NCBI GenBank assembly: GCA_030683005.1
Contig: JAUXMY010000030.1
Coordinates: 1 to 64,000, forward strand
DNA length: 64,000 bases
Origin: Caulobacter sp.
GTDB lineage: Bacteria > Pseudomonadota > Alphaproteobacteria > Caulobacterales > Caulobacteraceae
Direction of reading: 5' to 3'
Shown here: in pieces, positions 3,104 through 16,160 of the stretch
Numbering within the stretch: the first letter of the stretch is position 1
Layout of the letters: the number at the start of each line of letters is the position of its first letter
Position numbers and translations under genes: made by a program
Notes under the pieces: generated by a model
What the model saw: the letters and a program-made list of their open reading frames with translations, nothing else
Databases searched by the model: none
Told to the model about the DNA's origin: nothing

Positions 3104-4042
3104 TCAGCCGTGGGTCCAGCCCCGGCGCGTGACCTCGACCTCGCGCCCGTCGAACCAGGCCGCGACCCCCTGCCCCTCCACGAAGCGTCCGATGACCGTC
3201 AGCCCCTCGGGCGCCTCGACGTCCGGCGCCAGGGCGCAGACGACCTGATAGTCATCGCCGCCCGACGCCAGCGCGGCCAGCGCGTCAGCTTGCGCCGGCT
3301 CGCCGCCGAGCCACGCCCGCGCCTCCGGAGACAGCGGAATGGCGTCCAGGTCGATCCGGGCACCGCACCCGCTCGCCGTGGCGATATGGCCGGCGTCGGC
3401 CAGGAGACCGTCGGACACGTCCGCCGCGGCGCGGGCATGGGCGCGCAGGACCGGGATCAGGTCGACGCGCGGCGTGGGCAGGCGGTAGCGAGCGGCCAGG
3501 ACGGCGCTGTTCAGCTCCCCCCGCGCGGCCCGCAGACCCAGCCAGCCGTCGCCAATCACGCCACTGACCGCCAGAAGGTCGCCCGGTCTGGCGCCGGCGC
3601 GACGGACGGCCCGGCCTTCGGGGACCCAGCCGAGCATCGACGCGGTCAAGGTCAGCGGTCCGGGGGTGGTCACGGTGTCGCCGCCCAGCAGACTGATGTC
3701 GAAAGCATCGCCGTCCGTCGCCAGGCCATCGGCGAACAGCGCCTTGTCCGGCCAGCTGGTCTCGGTCGGCCAGGCGGTGGTCAGGAAGTAGCCGTAAGGC
3801 TGCGCCCCCTTGGCGGCCAGGTCGGAGAGGTTCACCCGCAGCAGCTTGCGGGCGACCAGGTCGAGCGGGTCATCGGGCAGGAAATGGACGCCGGCGACCA
3901 TGGCGTCCGTGGTGATCACCAGGTCAAAGCCGGGCCGCGAGGGAATCACCGCCGCGTCGTCGAGCAGATCGAGCGCTTCCGGCGCGCCCCGGGTCAGGGG
4001 CCTCAGGAGCTGCGCGATCCAGTCGAACTCACCCCCGGGCAT
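3104..4042 (-). CDS. thiL: Thiamine-monophosphate kinase
   Basis: ThiL phosphorylates thiamine monophosphate to thiamine pyrophosphate with ATP in the cytoplasm, the last step of vitamin B1 synthesis. The 312-residue product has the family N-terminus EFDWIA, the metal-binding [18 protein letters not shown] near residues 40-50 and [13 protein letters not shown] later LGGDT and the C-terminal SGGDDYQ signature are also present. The start at 4042 overlaps the 3' end of nusB by 14 bp; longer in-frame starts would add 80 residues lying inside nusB. The order ribH-nusB-thiL is widespread in alphaproteobacteria. Confidence 0.96.
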
Positions 4043-4556
4043 CGCGGGCGATGCCATCAAGGGCGGCGTTGACGAAGCCGGGCTCGGGACCCTCGAAGAA
4101 GGACTTGGCGATCTCGACATACTCGTCGATGGCCACCTCGACCGGCACGTCCGGCCGGCGGACCAGCTCCCAGGCGCCGGCGCGCAGGATGGCGCGCAGC
4201 GTGGCGTCAATGCGTTCCAGCCGCCAGCCCGTGGCCAGCCGGCCCTTGACCGCGCCGTCGATGGAGGCCTGTTCGGCGACAACGCCCTTCACCAGTTCGC
4301 CGAAGAAGACCTCGTCGGCCTCGGCGAGAGTCTCGCCTTCCATGTCGCGGTCGAAGCGGTGCTCGGTGAACTCGGCGATGACGTCCTCGGCGCCGGCGCC
4401 GCTCATCTCCATCTGGTAGAGCGCCTGGATGGCGGCCAGGCGGGCGACGGTGCGGGCGCGGCGCTCGCGCGTGCTCAGGTTGACCTTGTCCTCGGTCGCG
4501 GCGACCAGCTTGTCATAGGCCGCCTTGAGCGAGGCGGGCTTGCCCTCGCCGCTCAT
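4029..4556 (-). CDS. nusB: Transcription antitermination factor NusB
   Basis: NusB binds boxA RNA together with NusE (ribosomal protein S10) to allow processive transcription of rRNA operons. The 175-residue all-helical protein has the family signature [19 protein letters not shown] near residues 32-50. The C-terminal helices include '[19 protein letters not shown]', followed by the ending '[10 protein letters not shown]'. Its ATG overlaps the ribH stop by one base, so translation is probably coupled to ribH. thiL starts inside its 3' end. Confidence 0.97.
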
Positions 4557-5011
4557 CAGGACCGTCCCGACAGGCGCTGGCGGATGCTCAGGACCTCAAG
4601 GCAGGCGCGGGCCGCGCCGCCGCCCTTGTCGCCCTCGGAGATGCGGGCGCGGGCCCAGGCCTGCTCCTCGTCCTCGACGGTCAGGATGCCGTTGCCGATG
4701 GCCAGTCCCTTGTGGACGGCCAGGTCCATCAGGCCGCGCGAGCTTTCGTTGGAGACGATCTCGAAGTGATAGGTCTCGCCGCGGATGACCGTGCCCAGCG
4801 CGACGTAGCCGTCATAGCGCACGCCCATGGAGCCAGCTTCCTCGGCGATGGCGATCACGGCCGGAATCTCCAGCGCGCCCGGCACCGTGATGACGTCGTA
4901 CTCCGCGCCGAACGCGGTGATGGCGTCGGTCGCGCCGGCCAGCAGCGCGTCCGCCAGGTCGGAGTAGAACCGCCCCTCCACGATCAGGATGCGGATCTTG
5001 TCATCGGACAT
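4556..5011 (-). CDS. ribH: 6,7-dimethyl-8-ribityllumazine synthase
   Basis: RibH condenses 5-amino-6-ribitylaminouracil with 3,4-dihydroxy-2-butanone 4-phosphate, the penultimate step of riboflavin synthesis. The 151 residues contain [14 protein letters not shown] at the start, the substrate-binding VPGALEIP near residue 44 and the phosphate-binding [22 protein letters not shown] (split here by family knowledge into substrate and catalytic parts, with His acting as the base). It lies 6 bp downstream of ribBA and overlaps nusB, so it belongs to the same operon. Confidence 0.97.
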
Positions 5012-7463: not shown

Positions 7464-7927
7464 TCCTCCACGTCGTCGGACAAGCCCTCGGCGCTCAGGA
7501 ACTGGGCGAAGTCGTCGGTGTGCTTGAAGTCACGGTAGACCGAGGCGTAACGGACGTAGGCGACGTCATCGAGCGACTTGAGCGCCTTCATGACCATCTC
7601 GCCGACGACGGAAGACGGCATCTCCGTCTCGCCCATGCTTTCCAGCTGGCGCACGATGCCGTTGATCAGCCGGTCGACCCGCTCGGGCTCGATGTTGCGC
7701 TTGCGCAGCGGCAGCGCCACGGAGCGGGCCAGCTTCTCGCGGTCGAAGGGCGTGCGCCGCCCCGACCGCTTGAGGATGGTCAGCTCGCGCAGCTGCACGC
7801 GCTCGAAGGTGGTGAACCTGCCGCCGCATTCGGGGCAGAGGCGACGGCGGCGGATGGCCGCGCCGTCTTCCGACGGGCGGCTGTCCTTCACCTGGCTTTC
7901 CATGTGTCCGCAGAACGGGCAGCGCAT
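7460..7927 (-). CDS. nrdR: Transcriptional repressor NrdR
   Basis: NrdR is a zinc-finger and ATP-cone repressor that senses dATP/ATP and shuts off ribonucleotide reductase genes. The 155-residue product has the N-terminal zinc ribbon with Cys3, Cys6, Cys31 and Cys34 (MRCPFC...CPEC). An ATP-cone domain follows from about residue 48 ([18 protein letters not shown] to '[13 protein letters not shown]'). Length and motifs are typical. It sits 30 bp downstream of glyA and overlaps ribD, an arrangement common in alphaproteobacteria. Confidence 0.97.
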
Positions 7928-7957
7928 ATCTGGGCCCCTCCCGGAGGACCGTCCCTA

Positions 7958-9250
7958 TTAGTTGTAGATCGGGAAGCGCGCCGTCAACGCCATGACCTGT
8001 TCGCGCACCTTCGCCTCGACCGCGGCGTTGCCCTCGGCGCCGTTGGCGGCCAGACCGTCGACGACCTCGCCGATCCAGCGACCGATCTGCTGGAACTCCG
8101 CCACCCCGAAGCCGCGGGTGGTGCCGGCCGGGGTGCCGAGACGAACGCCGGAGGTCACCGTGAACGAGGCCGTGTCGAACGGAATGCCGTTCTTGTTGCA
8201 GGTGATGTGGGCGCGCTCGAGCGAGGCTTCGGTGTCGCGGCCGGTGACGCCCTTTGGCCGCAGGTCGACGAGCATGACGTGGCTGTCGGTACCGCCCGAG
8301 ACGATGTTGACGCCGCAGGCCATCAGGGTGTCGGCCAGGGCCTTGGCGTTGGCGACCACCTGTTCGGCGTAATGCTTGAAGTCCGGCTGCAGCGCCTCGC
8401 CGAAGGCCACGGCCTTGGCGGCGATGACATGCTCCAGCGGTCCGCCCTGCAGGCCGGGGAACACCGCCGAGTTGATCTTCTTGGCGATGGCCTCGTCGTT
8501 GGTGAGGATCAGGCCGCCGCGCGGACCGCGCAGGGTCTTGTGGGTCGTGGTGGTCACGACATGCGCGTGCGGCACCGGGTTGGGATAGGCGCCGCCCGCC
8601 ACCAGGCCGGCGTAGTGGGCCATGTCGACCATGAGCAGGGCGCCGATGCTGTCGGCGATCTCGCGGAAGCGCTTGAAGTCGATGGCGCGGCTGTAGGCCG
8701 AGCCGCCGGCGATGATCAGCCTGGGCTTCTCGCGCCGGGCGACCTCGGCGACGTTGTCGTAGTCGATGTACTGGTCCTGGGCGCGGACGCTGTAGGCGAC
8801 GGGCTTGAACCACTTGCCGGACTGGTTTGCCGGGGAGCCGTGGGTCAGGTGCCCGCCGGCGGCCAGATCCATGCCCATGAAGGTGTCGCCCGGCGTCAGC
8901 AGGGCCAGGAACACCGCCTGGTTGGCCTGGGCGCCCGAGTGCGGCTGGACGTTGGCGAAGCCGGCGCCGAACAGCTGCTTGGCGCGGTCGATGGCCAGCT
9001 GCTCGATGACGTCGACGTACTCGCAGCCGCCGTAGTAGCGCTTGCCCGGGTAACCCTCTGCGTACTTGTTGGTCAGGATCGAGCCCTGGGCCTCGAGCAC
9101 CGCCTTGCTGACGATGTTCTCGGAGGCGATCAGCTCGATCTGGGTCTGCTGCCGCTCGAGCTCCTGGGCGATGGCCCTGGCGATCGCCGGATCGGCGGTG
9201 GTCAGGTCAGCGCCGAAGAAGGCGGGGCGGGTCGGAGTCGTGGCGTTCAT
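7958..9250 (-). CDS. glyA: Serine hydroxymethyltransferase
   Basis: GlyA converts serine and tetrahydrofolate to glycine and methylene-tetrahydrofolate, the main entry into one-carbon metabolism. The 430-residue PLP enzyme shows [27 protein letters not shown], the cofactor region '[13 protein letters not shown]' and the PLP-lysine motif [16 protein letters not shown] chose the ATG at 9250 because it has a GGGGAT ribosome site at good spacing; an upstream start would add 17 residues. It is probably the first gene of the glyA-nrdR-rib-nusB-thiL operon. Its leader (9251-9485) faces the divergent mucR-like gene. Confidence 0.97.
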
Positions 9251-9485
9251 GGTCAGATCCCCTGGCAACGGCGCATCGGCGCGCCCTCTATTAGTGTGCA
9301 TTGCGGAAAATGGGAGGCCGGTTCTGCATCCGGCGGGATTTGCTGGTGACGATTTAGGGCGACCGCCCGGTCGTTCGAGGGGGAACAGGCGGGAACCCTC
9401 ATGCGCAAGACGCGTTGGTCACCGGAGCCTTCCGCCGTCCAGGCGCGACGGTACGGCGCGTCATATCCAGGAGAGAAGGTGAGTA

Positions 9486-9917
9486 ATGGCCGACGAAACC
9501 GGGCGTAAGGACACGTCGGACACCGAGATCCTCGCCCATGCCTCCGACATTGTATCGGCCTATGTGAGTCGCAACGCGGTCGGGGCCACAGCGCTTCCGG
9601 ACCTGATCCGGATGGTCCACCAGTCGCTGAGCGGTCTGACCGACGCGCCGGCGCCGGCCCCGCGCGAAAAGCAGAAGCCGGCTGTGCCGATCTCCAGGTC
9701 GATCCAGCGGGACTACATCGTCTGTCTTGAGGACGGCGCGCACCTGAAGATGCTGAAGCGCTACCTGCGCTCGCGCTTCGGGCTCTCGCCCGAGGACTAT
9801 CGACGCAAATGGGGACTGCCGCCGGAATACCCGATGGTCGCGCCGGCCTACGCGGAGCGCAGGTCGGACTTCGCCAAACAGATCGGACTTGGAAAAGGCG
9901 TTCGGCGGCGGACGTAG
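9486..9917 (+). CDS. MucR/Ros-family transcriptional regulator
   Basis: The 143-residue protein has the MucR layout: an N-terminal oligomerisation region, then a DNA-binding core with YIVCLEDG, LKMLKRYLRSRFGLSPEDYR and KWGLPPEYPMVAP, and a basic tail. MucR proteins are nucleoid-associated silencers that bind AT-rich sites. Usual members carry a CX2DX9HX3H zinc site. Here Cys and Asp remain, but the two His positions are Tyr and Arg (KRYLRSR), so zinc binding looks lost or altered. A strong AGGAGA ribosome site precedes the ATG. It is divergent from glyA. Confidence 0.92.
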   Translation: MADETGRKDTSDTEILAHASDIVSAYVSRNAVGATALPDLIRMVHQSLSGLTDAPAPAPREKQKPAVPISRSIQRDYIVCLEDGAHLKMLKRYLRSRFGLSPEDYRRKWGLPPEYPMVAPAYAERRSDFAKQIGLGKGVRRRT

Positions 9918-9980
9918 CTCCGGTTGGGCAGGACGCTGTCTAGCCGATCTTGAGGTTTCGAGAAAGCTCTTCCCTCACGC

Positions 9981-10022
9981 CGTCATGGCCCGACTCGTTC
10001 GGGCCACCCATGCGTGGTGAGT
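9981..10022. repeat. Palindromic intergenic repeat, family A, left copy
   Basis: The sequence cgtcatggcccgactcgttc followed by gggccaccca is an imperfect palindrome. It recurs, inverted, at 10375-10412 and in two more copies at 34991-35033 and 35201-35235. It behaves like a REP-type element and lies between the mucR-like gene and the 10032-10406 gene. Confidence 0.8.
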
Positions 10023-10423: not shown

Positions 10424-11653
10424 TTAAGCCGCCACGCCGCCGACACGGGCGATGTTGCAGTGGGCCCAGAGGTTCTCCATCGCCCTGACCAGATCGCGCA
10501 TCATCTCGTCGGTGTGGAAGGGCGTGGGCGTGAAGCGCAGCCGTTCGGTGCCGCGCGGCACGGTCGGGTAGTTGATCGGCTGGACATAGATGCCGTGGTC
10601 TTCGAGCAGCATGTCGGAGACCATCTTGCAGTGGACGGCGTCGCCGACCATCACCGGCACGATGTGGCTGACCGAGCTTTCCATCACGGGAAGACCGGCT
10701 TCCTTCATCATCCGCTTCAAGGTCGCGGCGCGCTCCTGGTGCGCCTGGCGAAGCTCGTCATGCGCCTTCAGGTACCGCACCGAGGCCAGGGCGCCGGCGG
10801 TCAGCGCCGGCGGCAGCGAGGTGGTGAAAATGAAGCCCGAGGCGTAGGAGCGGATCGCGTCGATGATCACGGCGTCGGCGGCGATGTAGCCGCCCATGAC
10901 ACCGAACGCCTTGCCCAGCGTGGCCTCGATGATGTCGATCTGGTCCATCATGCCGTCACGCTCGGCGACGCCGCCGCCGCGCGGACCGTACATGCCGATG
11001 GCGTGGACCTCGTCGATGTAGGTCATCGCCCCGTACTTCTTGGCCAGGGCGACGGTGCCGGGGATGTCGGAGATGTCGCCGTCCATCGAATAGACGCTCT
11101 CGAAGGCGATCAGCTTGGGCGCCGCCGGATCAGCCGCCGCCAGCAGCTGTTCGAGATGCGCCAGATCGTTGTGGCGGAAGATGTGTCGGGCGCCGCCGCC
11201 GTTGCGGATGCCGCTGATCATCGAGGCGTGGTTCAACTCGTCCGAGAAGATGATCAGGCCGGGCAGGATCTTGTAGAGCGTCGACAGCGTCGCCTCGTTG
11301 GAGACGTAGCCGGACGTGAACAGCAGCGCCGATTCCTTGCCGTGCAGGTCGGCGAGCTCGTGCTCCAGTTCGACGTGGAAATGGGTGGTGCCGGAAATGT
11401 TGCGCGTGCCGCCCGAGCCCGAGCCGGTGGCGTCGATCGCCGCATGCATCGCATCCAGCACGACCGGGTTCTGACCCTGACCCAGGTAGTCGTTGGAGCA
11501 CCAGACGACGATGTCGGCTTCGGACCCGTCTTCGCGGGTCCAGGTGGCGCGCGGGAAGGCTCCCCGATGACGCTTCAGGTCGGCGAAGACGCGATAGCGA
11601 CCTTCACTGCGCACCTGCTGCACGGCATTTTCAAACGCGGCTTTGTAGTCCAT
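10424..11653 (-). CDS. hemA: 5-aminolevulinate synthase
   Basis: The enzyme condenses glycine and succinyl-CoA to 5-aminolevulinate, the first step of haem synthesis by the C4 (Shemin) route typical of alphaproteobacteria. The 409-residue PLP enzyme shows [44 protein letters not shown], the His/Asp cofactor region '[12 protein letters not shown]' and the PLP-lysine motif [15 protein letters not shown] chose the ATG at 11653 ([11 protein letters not shown]), the family N-terminus. hemB, the next enzyme of the pathway, lies at 17.9 kb on the opposite strand. Confidence 0.97.
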
Positions 11654-11847
11654 CGACGATGCCCGGTCCCGCAACGGCGCAAGTCCGCCCGACCGGCTCC
11701 TTGGTTTTTTCTAGCGCGGCTTTTGGCGCCGCTGCACGCCCGAGTCCACTTACGGGAGTTTCATCTGGAAACCTAATACGTGAATCCACGGAGGTCTTGC
11801 GCGAACGGTTCTCAGATCAGCGGCCCGCTGACGCAGGTTCAAGTAGG

Positions 11848-12750
11848 TCAGCCGTCCAGCGAGGCGAGCTTTCCGCGGAACATCTGCAGCATGGCCGAAA
11901 AGTCCTTCTGACCGTAGCCGAGGCCGTCAAACAGCGCGTACAGGGCCTCGGCCTGGGCTCCCAGGGGCGTCGTCGCCCCGGACCGCGCCGCGGCCTCCTG
12001 CGCCAGTTTCAGGTCCTTGAGCATCAGGGCGGTCAGGAAGCCGCCCTCGTAGTTGCGGTTCGACGGCGCCGCCTCGACCGGTCCGGGCCAGGGGCTGTAG
12101 CTGGTCAGCGACCAGCACTGGCCGGAGGACTTCGAGGCGATCTCGAAGAATCGCTCAGGCTCAAGCCCCAGCTTTTCGGCCAGGGCGAAGGCTTCGCAGG
12201 TGCCGATCATCGAGATGCCGAGCAACATGTTGTTGCAGATCTTGGCCGCCTGGCCCGAGCCCAGCCCGCCGGCGTGAAAGACGGCCCGGGCCATCGGGGT
12301 CAAAGCGTCCTCGAAGGCGGCGTAGTCGTCAGCCTCGCAGCCAACCATGAAGGCCAGGGAGCCGGCCTCGGCCGCCATGACCCCGCCGCTGACCGGCGCG
12401 TCGGCGAAGCGCAGGCCCGCCGCCCTCGCCTGCTCGCCCACGGCCCGGGCGCTGTCGACGTCGATGGTCGAGCAGTCGATCAGCAGGGCCGATTTGGGCG
12501 CATGGGCCAGCACCTCATCGCCATAGACAGCGCGGACATGGGCTCCCGCCGGCAGCATGGTGATGACGATGTCCGCGTCCTTCACGGCTTCGGCGACCGA
12601 GGCAGCGGGACGGCAGCCGGCAGCGACGGCCTTGTCGAGCGCGGCTTGGGAGAGGTCGAAGGCATGGACCTGGCGGCCGGCCTTGGCCTGGTTGGCGGCC
12701 ATGCCGGCCCCCATGGCGCCGAGACCGATGAACGCGACTTGGGTTGTCAT
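11848..12750 (-). CDS. mmsB: 3-hydroxyisobutyrate dehydrogenase
   Basis: The enzyme oxidises 3-hydroxyisobutyrate to methylmalonate semialdehyde with NAD+ in valine degradation. The 300 residues show the Rossmann motif FIGLGAMGAGMA at 8-19, the substrate motif DAPVSGGVMAAEAG at 117-130 and catalytic Lys170 in GSGQAAKICNN. C-terminal family motifs include 'GLGYGQKDFSAMLQ'. Its neighbours upstream are 3-hydroxyisobutyryl-CoA hydrolase and an isobutyryl-CoA-type acyl-CoA dehydrogenase, which supports the valine role. It ends the cluster, about 195 bp before hemA. Confidence 0.94.
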   Translation of the reverse strand: MTTQVAFIGLGAMGAGMAANQAKAGRQVHAFDLSQAALDKAVAAGCRPAASVAEAVKDADIVITMLPAGAHVRAVYGDEVLAHAPKSALLIDCSTIDVDSARAVGEQARAAGLRFADAPVSGGVMAAEAGSLAFMVGCEADDYAAFEDALTPMARAVFHAGGLGSGQAAKICNNMLLGISMIGTCEAFALAEKLGLEPERFFEIASKSSGQCWSLTSYSPWPGPVEAAPSNRNYEGGFLTALMLKDLKLAQEAAARSGATTPLGAQAEALYALFDGLGYGQKDFSAMLQMFRGKLASLDG

Positions 12751-12756
12751 GGAGGG

Positions 12757-13512
12757 CTACTTCGGCTTGCGGAACTTGAGGACGAACTGGTCCGAGCGGC
12801 CCTTGATGGAGTCGTCGAACACGCTGGCGGTGCGCGGGTCGGAGGGATTGCGCAGGACGTCGCTTTCGGCCTCCAGCACGAAGCCGGCTGCGGCCAGCTC
12901 GGCCTTCACCATCGCGATGTCGATGCGGTGCAGCTTGCTGGAGTCCCGGTCGCCGGTTCCATCCGCCGCATGGTGGTCGATGACCAGCAGCACGCCGCCG
13001 GGCTTCAGCGCATCGAACACCTGCTTGTTGATCGCCGCGATCTGCTCGGGCGTCGCCATGCCCAGGTGCAGGTCGTGGTAGTTCTGGGCGGTCAGGATCA
13101 GATCCAGCGGCTCGGGGAAGGTGACCGTGCCCAGGGACTGCCGCACCGGAACGATGTTGGGCGCGAACTTGACCGTCTCATCCTGGCCGGCGGCGTAGCT
13201 GGCCTGGAAGGCGATGAATTCCGAGGCCTGGTAGGCGTAGACCTTGCCCGTCGGCCCGACCGCGCCCGACAGGATGCGGCTGAAGTAGCCGCCGCCCATC
13301 ATGAAGTCGGAGACCCTGTCGCCCGGTTGGACCCCGGCGAAGGCGAGGATCTCGGCCGGCTTGCGGCTGGCGTCGGCGACGCGCTGGGCCTCCGGACGCG
13401 CCGCGGCGGCCACGGCGGCGGCGATATTGGCCGGAATCTCGGCGGCGAAGGCGCCGGGGGCGAGGATCAGCGAGAGACCGCCGGCGAGGGCGGCGAGGCA
13501 GCGGCGGGTCAT
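12757..13512 (-). CDS. Exported class I methyltransferase-like protein (COG4798 type)
   Basis: The 251-residue product begins with a signal peptide (MTRRCLAALAGGLSLILAPGAFA, cleavage near 23-24), so it should act in the periplasm. The mature part resembles a SAM-dependent methyltransferase: 'PGDRVSDFMMGGGYFSRIL' in the motif I position, then 'GKVYAYQ', 'DLILTAQNYHDLH' and 'LKPGGVLLVIDHHA'. The SAM-binding glycine loop departs from the usual DLGxGxG, having DFMMGGGY. The ATG at 13512 overlaps the stop of the paralogous upstream gene. The substrate is unknown. Confidence 0.85.
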   Translation of the reverse strand: MTRRCLAALAGGLSLILAPGAFAAEIPANIAAAVAAAARPEAQRVADASRKPAEILAFAGVQPGDRVSDFMMGGGYFSRILSGAVGPTGKVYAYQASEFIAFQASYAAGQDETVKFAPNIVPVRQSLGTVTFPEPLDLILTAQNYHDLHLGMATPEQIAAINKQVFDALKPGGVLLVIDHHAADGTGDRDSSKLHRIDIAMVKAELAAAGFVLEAESDVLRNPSDPRTASVFDDSIKGRSDQFVLKFRKPK

Positions 13513-14315
13513 CGGCGAGCGCTCCCGGGTTTGCGGAACTTGAACGCGAACTGGTCGGTCTTGCCGCGGATGCCGGCATCGAAGACGTTGGCGGTCAGCG
13601 GGTCCCTTGGATTGCGCAGGATGCGGGTCTCGCCCTCGTAGATGAAGCCGGCGGCCTCGACCTCCCGGCGCACAACGGCCGGATCGATGCGGTGCAGGAC
13701 GTCCCACTGGGCCGGGCCCGTGCCCGCCTTGGCGGTATGGTCGATGACGATGTAGACGCCGCCGGGCTTGAGGGCGTTGAACGCCTGCCGGTTCACGACC
13801 GCCAGATCGACCGGGCCCATGAAGGGCAGATGCAGGTCGTGGTAGTTCTGGGCCGTGAAGATCATGTCGACCTTCTCGGGCGCGCCGAACTGCGGCATCC
13901 GGCGCAGGATCATCCGGGTGTTGGCGAACGGCGGCTTGTTCACAAAGGCGGCGACGGACGGCGGACGGCCCTTGGCCACGGCGGTCAGCTCATCGGGCAC
14001 ATAGGCGTAGACCCGCCCGTTCGGACCCACCGCCTTGGAAAAGATGCGGGTGAAGTAGCCCTGGCCCGGCACCAGATCGATGACCTTCATGCCCGGACGC
14101 ACGCCGGCCCAGGCGAGGATCTGGCCCGGCTTGCGGGCGGCGTCGCGGGCCTTGTCGGCGTCCGGACGCGCCGGATCGGTCAGAGCTGCCCCCAGGAAGC
14201 CCGGGATCGCGATCGGCGCATCAGCCGGAGGCGGCGGCGGGGGTGGCGGAACGGTTTCGCAGGCCGAGACGGCAAGGACGGCGGTCAGCGCCAACCAGCG
14301 GGCATGGGTCTTCAT
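13509..14315 (-). CDS. Methyltransferase-like lipoprotein, paralogue of its downstream neighbour
   Basis: The 268-residue product starts with a lipoprotein signal (lipobox AVSAC, Cys near residue 19), followed by a Pro-rich linker of eight prolines and then a class I methyltransferase-like domain. Visible motifs are KPGQILAWAGVRPGMKVIDL, 'VPGQGYFTRIFSKAVGPNGRVYAYVP', 'FTAQNYHDLH' and 'LKPGGVYIVIDHTAKAGTG'. It is clearly homologous to the 12757-13512 product (shared NYHDLH, LKPGGV and DQF.FKFRKP endings), so the two are a tandem duplication. They overlap by 4 bp and are probably co-translated. Function is not known. Confidence 0.85.
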   Translation of the reverse strand: MKTHARWLALTAVLAVSACETVPPPPPPPPADAPIAIPGFLGAALTDPARPDADKARDAARKPGQILAWAGVRPGMKVIDLVPGQGYFTRIFSKAVGPNGRVYAYVPDELTAVAKGRPPSVAAFVNKPPFANTRMILRRMPQFGAPEKVDMIFTAQNYHDLHLPFMGPVDLAVVNRQAFNALKPGGVYIVIDHTAKAGTGPAQWDVLHRIDPAVVRREVEAAGFIYEGETRILRNPRDPLTANVFDAGIRGKTDQFAFKFRKPGSARR

Positions 14316-14376: not shown

Positions 14377-15435
14377 TCAAGTCAGCGGCGTCCATTCCTG
14401 ATCGGCCGGAAGGGGCGCGAAGATGTCGTCCAGCACCGCCTCCTGAACCTCCGCCACCGTCGGCGGCGACCAGCGCGGCGCGTTGTCCTTGTCGATAATG
14501 ACCGCGCGGACGCCTTCAAGGAAGTCGTGCATCGCCACAACGCGGGCGCCGATCCGGTATTCCATGACCATGTTGTCGGTGAAGTCGGTCAGCAGCGCCC
14601 CGTGGGCCAGCTGGCGGAAGGCGACCCGCAGGGTTTGCGGCGACTTGGTCGCCAGGGTCGCCAGCTGGGCCGTGGCCCACTCGCCGCCATCGACGGTGAG
14701 GCGTTCAAGGATCGTCTCGACGCTGTCGCCGTCGAACAGCCGGTCGATGTCGGCCTGATGCGCGGCCAGCGGCGGATGGCCGGCGTCCTCGACGCAGGTG
14801 GCCAGGGCTCCCGCCAGGGCGTCAGGGTGTTCCAGCAGCGCCGCCTTGAAGGCCTCGACCTTCGCGGCGGGCATGAAGTGGCTGGCGATGCCCAGCGCGC
14901 AGCAATCCGGCGCCTTGATCCGCGCGCCGGTCAGGGCCAGCCACAGCCCCGCCTTCCCCGGCAGGCGTGGCAGGAACCAGCCGCCGCCGACGTCGGGAAA
15001 CAGGCCGATGCCGGTCTCGGGCATGGCGAAGGTGGTCCGCTCGGTGGCGATCCGCACGCTGGCCGGCATGGAGAGCCCCACGCCGCCGCCCATGGTCACC
15101 CCGTCCATCACCGCGATCACCGGCTTGGGATAGACGAACAGCAGGTGGTTGAGCCGGTACTCGGTGTGGAAGAACAGCCGCGCCGCCTTGCCGTCCCCCG
15201 CCCCGCTCTCGGCCAGCATCCGGATGTCGCCGCCGGCGCAGAAGCCGCGCTCGCCGCTGTGGTCGATCAGGATGCAGCGGACGGCGTCGTCGGACTTCCA
15301 CGCCTGCAGCGCCTCGATCATCGCCTCGCACATGCCCAGCGTCAGGGCGTGAAGGGCCCTGGGCCGGTTCAGCGTGATGCGGCCGACGCCGGATTCGATG
15401 CGGCAGAGGACTTCGGGGGCTTCGGCATTTGTCAT
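14377..15435 (-). CDS. 3-hydroxyisobutyryl-CoA hydrolase (enoyl-CoA hydratase/isomerase fold)
   Basis: The product is predicted to release 3-hydroxyisobutyrate from its CoA ester in valine degradation. The 352-residue crotonase-fold protein shows ITLNRPRALHALTLGM near residues 20-35, the oxyanion-hole segment 'GERGFCAGGDIRML', 'KPVIAVMDGVTMGGGVGLS' and the hydrolase-type 'AMPETGIGLFPDVGGG'. A long C-terminal region ends with 'EYRIGARVV...DFLEGVRAVIIDKDNAPRW', which is typical of HIBCH rather than simple hydratases. It is 6 bp downstream of vapC and in the same cluster as the acyl-CoA dehydrogenase and mmsB. Confidence 0.93.
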   Translation of the reverse strand: MTNAEAPEVLCRIESGVGRITLNRPRALHALTLGMCEAMIEALQAWKSDDAVRCILIDHSGERGFCAGGDIRMLAESGAGDGKAARLFFHTEYRLNHLLFVYPKPVIAVMDGVTMGGGVGLSMPASVRIATERTTFAMPETGIGLFPDVGGGWFLPRLPGKAGLWLALTGARIKAPDCCALGIASHFMPAAKVEAFKAALLEHPDALAGALATCVEDAGHPPLAAHQADIDRLFDGDSVETILERLTVDGGEWATAQLATLATKSPQTLRVAFRQLAHGALLTDFTDNMVMEYRIGARVVAMHDFLEGVRAVIIDKDNAPRWSPPTVAEVQEAVLDDIFAPLPADQEWTPLT

Positions 15436-15441
15436 GGTGCG

Positions 15442-15864
15442 TCAGTCTCTCAGATCGACCGTGGCGAGACCACGACGCACCGCCGCCGCGAGCATGGGTC
15501 CGTCACGACTCGCCAGTCTGGCTCCGGACTCCAGCGCCGCGTCGAGATAGAGCGCGTCGTATAGCGACAGACCTTCCCGCCGCGCCAGAGCCAGCACGTC
15601 GTCGTGACGCACCCTGTCGAGCAAAGGTCCGACCGTGATCGCAAGCTTGGCCACGAAGTCGAGCGCGGCGGCGACCTCCGCAGGGCTGAGGCCGCCTCGA
15701 CGCTCTGCGCGCAAAAGCAGGCTGCGGCATTCGGCCGGAAAGATGTACGGCGCCACAAACCGGGTGTCGGCCACTTGCGTCCTGAGCGCATCGCTCGACG
15801 TCGTCCCCTGCGATGGCACCAGCCAGGCAGCGATCACGGATGCGTCGAGGACTGTCGCCGTCAC
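15442..15864 (-). CDS. vapC: PIN-domain toxin, VapC family
   Basis: VapC toxins are Mg2+-dependent ribonucleases that block translation when freed from their antitoxin. The 140-residue product has the PIN core: Asp7 in VLDASVIAAWL, Glu45 in PAECRSLLLRAE, Asp103 in LSLYDALYLDAAL and Asp121 in ARLASRDGPM. All the usual acidic residues are present, so it looks active. It overlaps its antitoxin gene by 4 bp. The pair sits between two valine-degradation genes on the same strand, so read-through from the metabolic operon is possible. Confidence 0.93.
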   Translation of the reverse strand: MTATVLDASVIAAWLVPSQGTTSSDALRTQVADTRFVAPYIFPAECRSLLLRAERRGGLSPAEVAAALDFVAKLAITVGPLLDRVRHDDVLALARREGLSLYDALYLDAALESGARLASRDGPMLAAAVRRGLATVDLRD

Positions 15865-16115
15865 TCCCGTCCGTCCTCGACCGCCTCTTTCCAGTCGAAC
15901 TCGAACTTCGCGCCAAGGCGGTCTTCAACACCGCTCTGAAACGCCCGCATCTGTTCGGCCAGATCCGCCGGAGCGCGACGGGTCGTGGGGGGGGCGCTCA
16001 ACTGCGCCACGGGTTTGCCATGGCGGGTGATCAGCACGGGTTCGCCCGTCTGCTGCACCTCGTCCAGCAGGGCGGACAGATTGGTTTTCGCCTCGAGGAC
16101 GCCGACTTCGCGCAT
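15861..16115 (-). CDS. Phd/YefM-type antitoxin
   Basis: The 84-residue protein starts MREVGVLEAKTNLSALLDEVQ and continues GEPVLITRHGKPVAQL, the Phd/YefM DNA-binding and dimerisation fold. Its C-terminus is charged (KFEFDWKEAVEDGRE), as expected for a toxin-neutralising tail. I chose the ATG at 16115; a 14-residue longer version would run through the operator. Such antitoxins repress their own promoter, and a perfect inverted repeat lies just upstream at 16129-16149. Confidence 0.92.
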   Translation of the reverse strand: MREVGVLEAKTNLSALLDEVQQTGEPVLITRHGKPVAQLSAPPTTRRAPADLAEQMRAFQSGVEDRLGAKFEFDWKEAVEDGRE

Positions 16116-16128
16116 GGAAGGCCGCCTG

Positions 16129-16149
16129 TTCTGACCAGTCTGGTCAGAA
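16129..16149. promoter_or_regulatory. Probable operator of the phd-vapC pair
   Basis: A perfect inverted repeat, ttctgaccag T ctggtcagaa, has two 10-bp arms and a 1-base centre. It is 13 bp upstream of the antitoxin start, within the 45-bp gap after the acyl-CoA dehydrogenase. The position and symmetry fit autoregulation by the antitoxin-toxin complex; binding itself is inference. Confidence 0.7.
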
Positions 16150-16160
16150 TAGCACATCCG

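Follow-up and report, generated by a model that had tools for sequence, protein, structure and literature searches.

Two putatively exported proteins with a predicted class I methyltransferase fold encoded among valine-degradation genes in Caulobacter

The stretch of Caulobacter DNA analysed here (64,000 nucleotides in all; hereafter the window) carries on its minus strand a run of genes in the order 3-hydroxyisobutyryl-CoA hydrolase, A, B, mmsB and hemA, where A and B designate two adjacent genes that the original prediction had described as paralogues coding for exported methyltransferase-like proteins. Both the position of the genes and their paralogy are borne out, the two products being 50% identical over 223 aligned residues (E 5e-75). 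The features discussed below are as follows.

14377..15435, minus strand: 3-hydroxyisobutyryl-CoA hydrolase family gene, 61 bases upstream of A
13509..14315, minus strand: gene A, predicted exported lipoprotein of class I methyltransferase fold, 268 aa (open reading frame, model and orthologues)
14262..14315, minus strand: predicted lipoprotein signal peptide of A, residues 1-18 (class kept in 54/55 orthologues)
14259..14261, minus strand: Cys19 of A, predicted lipidation site, followed by Glu, not Asp
14226..14249, minus strand: octaproline linker of A, residues 23-30 (orthologue comparison)
14055..14078, minus strand: cofactor-loop motif DLVPGQGY of A, residues 80-87 (family alignment)
13836..13850, minus strand: QNYHD of A, residues 156-160, including the invariant His159 (family alignment)
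13737..13748, minus strand: VIDH of A, residues 190-193, including His193 (family alignment)
12757..13512, minus strand: gene B, signal-peptide paralogue of A, 251 aa, with its ATG at 13512
13444..13512, minus strand: predicted signal peptide of B, residues 1-23, cleavage site approximate (orthologue comparison)
13285..13308, minus strand: cofactor-loop motif DFMMGGGY of B, residues 69-76 (orthologue comparison)
11848..12750, minus strand: mmsB, 3-hydroxyisobutyrate dehydrogenase, 6 bases downstream of B
10424..11674, minus strand: hemA, 5-aminolevulinate synthase (TIGR01821, 667.4 bits, cut-off 338.55)

The flanking genes were assigned from family profiles: the hydrolase matches NF004127 with 397.9 bits against a cut-off of 274, and mmsB matches TIGR01692 with 435 bits against 291.6. 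The stop codon of A and the start codon of B overlap by 4 bases. A search for promoters and terminators around the two genes gave nothing above chance, using sigma-70 patterns that may suit this organism poorly. A 316-aa open reading frame covering B proved to be a mechanical extension of B into A from a GTG. Further upstream, between an acyl-CoA dehydrogenase gene and the hydrolase gene, the window also carries a PIN-domain toxin and Phd/YefM antitoxin pair (15442-16157, minus strand), both members of which exceed their Pfam cut-offs; some relatives carry homologues of both genes in this position and others do not.

A and B both score below cut-off with every Pfam and NCBIfam family, and the weak matches obtained are to methyltransferases. 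The assignment is thus weak when judged from single-sequence profiles, but strong when judged from predicted structure. AlphaFold models built with 64 family sequences reach a mean pLDDT of 96.4 for A (modelled from residue 31) and 97.8 for B (modelled from residue 24), and the closest solved structure is in every comparison 3dh0, a SAM-dependent methyltransferase from Aquifex aeolicus. It ranks first in Foldseek with the A model (E 9.8e-12), first in VIA-align for both proteins (A: Z 19.2, rmsd 2.9, 174 residues; B: Z 19.9, rmsd 2.5, 172 residues) and first when the family profile is compared with solved structures (E 4.6e-16), where, at E up to 10, known methyltransferases were all that was of note among the best 60 of 163 matches. 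The likeness to 3dh0 extends to its AFTFHEL region, which resembles the family's AQNYHDL around His159, whereas overall identity is 22-23% and strand 2 of 3dh0 ends in Asp, a position occupied in most family members by Asn, Val or Gln. The class I methyltransferases YcgJ (1xxl) and BH2331 (1vl5) are also alike in fold (Z 16.5-19.1) at 16-19% identity, and YcgJ has in common with the family a VDH motif that includes His193. Another structure with a methyltransferase-like fold, 3ocj, is described as a 'possible exported protein' of Bordetella parapertussis; it ranks 27th in Foldseek (E 7.1e-9) and is absent from the best 60 of 163 family-profile matches. On the strength of these models, A and B almost certainly adopt the class I methyltransferase fold, in agreement with the original prediction; likeness of fold by itself shows no function.

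Both proteins begin with what appear to be export signals. The signal sequence of A is MKTHARWLALTAVLAVSA, with the lipobox VSA-Cys19, and the features expected of a lipoprotein (a basic start, a hydrophobic core and a lipobox ending in Cys) are present in A and in 54 of its 55 orthologues, the single exception missing its 5' end. Orthologues were defined, for A and B alike, as sequences at least 55% identical to the protein and nearer to it than to the other paralogue, and one of the locus sets had been picked as close relatives of A, so that its members are orthologues by choice. The linker, too, is a conserved feature, a run of 4 to 9 prolines being found in 55/55 A orthologues. In enteric bacteria Asp after the lipidated Cys is a signal for retention at the inner membrane, a rule that may not apply here; Asp occupies this position in none of the A orthologues. 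A signal peptide is seen in 11/11 B orthologues. We have little doubt, on the conservation of these segments, that both proteins are exported. Tat export of the two is unsupported, as there is no conserved twin-arginine motif (S/T-R-R-x-hydrophobic): A lacks RR, and among the 11 B orthologues RR occurs in the window copy alone.

Export appears to be the rule in the family as a whole. A home-made rule (a basic start and a hydrophobic core followed by either a lipobox or small residues), with a start picker that favours signal-giving starts and was applied alike to controls, classes 141 of the 147 distinct members as exported; of these, 81 are predicted lipoproteins and 60 have ordinary signal peptides. 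The 147 are what is left of 179 profile hits after removal of identical sequences and of rows without the Gly84 column; as this set is mostly Caulobacter, 72 representatives (below 65% identity, at least 170 aligned residues) were also drawn from it. Among cytoplasmic controls the rule fires in 28/207, 23 of these being mmsB proteins, which can be attributed to their hydrophobic first Rossmann strand; without mmsB the figure is 5/160. RR is present in 8 of the 69 exported representatives, and a Tat-like motif in 2. In three members (L087, L125 and L007) the rule picked an inner start, though an upstream ATG with a signal exists and the class is unchanged.

Of the six members not called exported, L086 and L106 are cut by the end of the locus and L054, from a draft genome, misses its 5' end. 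The only intact exceptions are L088, L089 and L130, which form one clade of 210-residue proteins. In these three (L088 at 3980-4612, L089 at 181-813) the N-terminal segment with Arg50 is missing and Asp replaces Tyr/Trp87. A quick tree places the signal-less L088 inside the larger of two superclades. On the same tree the lipoprotein label changes 16 times, with at least nine changes forced by well-supported branches, counts that are approximate in that two of the three rows labelled as lacking a signal are cut-off sequences; the changes suggest that anchoring comes and goes while export persists.

The altered glycine loop of B had been noted in the original prediction alongside DLVPGQGY in A, and both sequences are as described. 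The change in B is real, though it does not reflect decay: the loop reads DFx[MI]GGGY in all 11 B orthologues, just as it reads DL[IV]PGxGY in all 55 A orthologues, and all 24 family positions checked in B are intact. B is thus best described as a paralogue with a conserved loop signature of its own. A recent duplication of A giving rise to B is likewise unsupported, as the two sit in different subclades of the quick tree, where B groups with L139 and L146, from another family of the class (support 81, not starred). Several genomes of the same genus carry, distant from A or on another contig, a second copy that matches about as strongly.

The family is by no means confined to this genome. It is present in 41/41 genomes of a sample of relatives (own genome included), in 20/144 genomes of the class (A alone as query, 1e-8; own genome included) and in 55/249 genomes of the phylum (profile, 1e-15; own genome and near relatives included). 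Plasmid records, through which alone phyla beyond its own were covered, extend it to Cyanobacteria; no Gram-positive genus is among the plasmid matches listed, a list from which 3 of the 43 records in one search are missing. The plasmids include ones from Rhizobium, Nostoc, Sphingomonas, Paraburkholderia, Variovorax and Tolypothrix, on which family members are annotated as 'class I SAM-dependent methyltransferase' or 'methyltransferase'. Five plasmid-borne relatives (L087, L090, L091, L092 and L094) have signal peptides, while L088 (Rhizobium plasmid) and L089 (Nostoc plasmid) are 210 aa as annotated and lack one. The family is therefore already in databases under automatic names, and may be the one called COG4798, predicted methyltransferase, Alr7345 type. 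Literature searches, whose coverage left out most subscription papers, returned nothing on these names or on the family, and nothing describing rule-like export, loss of the ribose-binding acid or anchored-plus-soluble pairs. What we are dealing with is a real family, predicted to be exported in many bacteria and apparently unstudied, rather than the oddity of a single genome.

Conservation is marked across the 72 representatives. Invariant or nearly so, in A numbering, are R50, D58, R61, P63, V78, D/E80, G86 and G100, and further along D150, H159, L182-G186, H193, G223-F224, D238, G251, D254 and K262-P263. Asp150 and His159 are present in 147/147 members. His193 is retained in 68/72 representatives; among the 147 rows it is replaced in six and gapped in two fragments. 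Four A-like sequences (L026, L027, L028 and L081) have Ala or Phe at this position and are possible natural active-site variants.

The cofactor side of the pocket looks different. The acid that usually ends strand 2 and binds the ribose of SAM is found as Asp or Glu in 4/72 representatives; A has Val and B has Gln, and the residues most often seen are Asn (17), Val (13), Gln (12), Trp (5) and Ser (5), with others making up the remainder. Asn or Gln, which might stand in for the acid, together account for 29/72. In the glycine loop D/E80 is kept in 72/72, Gly84 in 62/72 and Gly86 in 71/72, while the first glycine of GxGxG is present in 7/72, the position being followed by Pro in 45/72. For comparison, the strand-2 acid was read by eye in 16/18 Methyltransf_11 matches of the same genome; the two controls without it (L161 and L163), which we take to be cyclopropane-synthase-like, imply that SAM binding is possible in its absence, and the acid is accordingly usual but not universal in class I methyltransferases. 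The signal-less L088, L089 and L130 retain the same core residues, with Val at strand 2 in L088 and L089 (FVP). As this clade, too, is without the acid, the altered pocket and export are not coupled.

The reading we favour, with confidence roughly evenly divided for and against, is that A and B are extracytoplasmic enzymes whose ligand is something other than canonically bound SAM, and whose position among valine genes is bound to the lineage. A widespread family would, on this reading of sequences and models, employ the class I methyltransferase fold in an extracytoplasmic setting. A would be lipid-anchored on its proline linker, probably at the outer membrane, with B soluble in the periplasm. 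Both would retain the apparent catalytic side of the pocket (Asp150, His159, His193 and KPGG), while lacking the usual ribose-binding acid and, as in most of the family, the first glycine of the cofactor loop, and may take as substrate a small molecule that belongs to the envelope or enters from outside. The suggestion in the original prediction that another ligand is bound fits the scarcity of the ribose acid; on the pocket residues, we would put the case for such a ligand at about evens.

SAM-dependent methylation is regarded as cytoplasmic, and we know of no extracytoplasmic source of SAM. If A and B were nonetheless true SAM-dependent methyltransferases working in the periplasm, SAM would have to be leaked, exported or taken up. 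The fold and the nearest solved structures are those of SAM enzymes, the glycine loop is in part retained, the strand-2 acid is missing from some of the control SAM enzymes and signal-less relatives exist, all of which are consistent with such an activity; Asp150, His159 and KPGG, moreover, occur in cytoplasmic SAM enzymes too. Against this stand the lack of a known SAM source and the absence of the acid from 68/72 representatives, and a search of the literature on exported or periplasmic methyltransferases gave nothing useful. We consider periplasmic SAM-dependent methylation rather unlikely, though it deserves to be taken seriously.

The changed cofactor loop, the missing acid and the lipid anchor with its proline linker could also be taken to indicate that A and B are pseudo-enzymes serving the envelope as structural elements, scaffolds or sensors; a structural or sensory role had been suggested in the original prediction. 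We found no evidence for such a role, and the invariance of Asp150 and His159 in all 147 rows, together with the near-invariance of R50, D58, R61, D238, D254 and K262, makes it improbable. The pattern of conserved residues suggests instead that A and B are probably enzymes rather than scaffolds. The presence of an exported family of this fold in more than a fifth of the phylum sample (55/249) implies that either the familiar fold supports a new reaction or SAM occurs beyond the cytoplasm. Both alternatives are accessible on small, confidently modelled proteins, and automatic annotation as 'class I SAM-dependent methyltransferase' conceals where the protein works.

Does the position of A and B indicate a part in valine breakdown, for example in the extracytoplasmic processing of 3-hydroxyisobutyrate or a related compound? 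Within Caulobacter the placement of the pair among valine genes, to which the original prediction had drawn attention, is well kept. Hydrolase and mmsB flank A in 38 of the 43 named loci with at least 1 kb on each side (52 in total, nine lacking 1 kb on one side), and in 18 of 22 such same-genus loci (24 in total), two sets that may share organisms. Three loci (L058, L060 and L074) have the hydrolase with no mmsB within 6 kb. Outside the genus, by contrast, the arrangement is found in 4/101 loci, many with only about 1.5 kb of flank, and all four come from two genomes of the same family (G092 and G290). It was not seen in two more genera of that family (G310 and G379), nor in a Phenylobacterium locus (L082) with 6 kb on each side, and in L028, L081 and L083 A adjoins hemA with no hydrolase or mmsB matched.

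Elsewhere the company differs: in the same phylum the gene lies between purH and purD (L204 and L206; in L192 purD alone was recognised), and other loci have beside it uvrC on the opposite strand (L177 and L178), aat (L198), a pseudouridine synthase group (L195, L197 and L202) or an AMP-binding enzyme and alpha/beta hydrolase group (L196, L205 and L207), with Slp in L196. A crude open reading frame rule called 163 proteins no more than two genes away from the family member in 41 loci; no group of them recurs in more than three loci, and no functional neighbour kept across lineages emerged. Flanking by hydrolase and mmsB was seen only in Caulobacter and in two other genomes of its family, which makes a valine-specific role unlikely; we regard it as quite improbable. 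We interpret the valine link as a gene order fixed in part of the Caulobacteraceae, not as a function; the place of A and B may reflect lineage-bound co-transcription.

A and B are not the only members of the family in this genome, which has four copies, the other two forming a second tandem pair on another contig.

L005 (C37:149000-166000), 7484-9312, minus strand: second tandem pair of the same genome (family match)

This pair, with weaker matches, is present in 24/25 same-genus genomes (own genome included), the exception being 70% complete. In 21/21 tandem loci read, chosen for having two neighbouring matches (20 of the 24 same-genus loci plus one from another genus, G310), a lipoprotein is paired with a soluble exported copy in the same arrangement as in A and B, the soluble copy of L228 having a doubtful start. 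That A and B should not be exported at all, through use of inner starts (which the original prediction had raised as grounds for its own refutation) or an N-terminus anchored on the cytoplasmic side, draws on the few close relatives without a signal, and is very improbable in view of the signals kept across orthologues and family, the upstream ATGs with a signal and the recurrence of the same classes at this second locus. More speculatively, we suggest as a tentative extension of the favoured reading that the family has re-tooled the fold for a non-SAM ligand and that the recurrent pairs of anchored and soluble proteins act together in the envelope.

Read by eye, the lipoprotein copy of the second pair (L005, L211-L230) has [ST]RR before its hydrophobic core in 21/21 loci, and the soluble copy has RR in 19/21. 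These signals look Tat-like, and the protein might be exported folded, perhaps with its ligand. Just downstream of the second pair (L005 6810-7487, minus strand) lies a gene for an exported 225-aa protein with no Pfam or NCBIfam match, and on the other side (9415-9987, plus strand) a gene that we named by eye as Hsp20-like. In tblastn searches of 20 pair loci with short flanks, the 225-aa protein was found in 14 and the Hsp20-like protein in 20.
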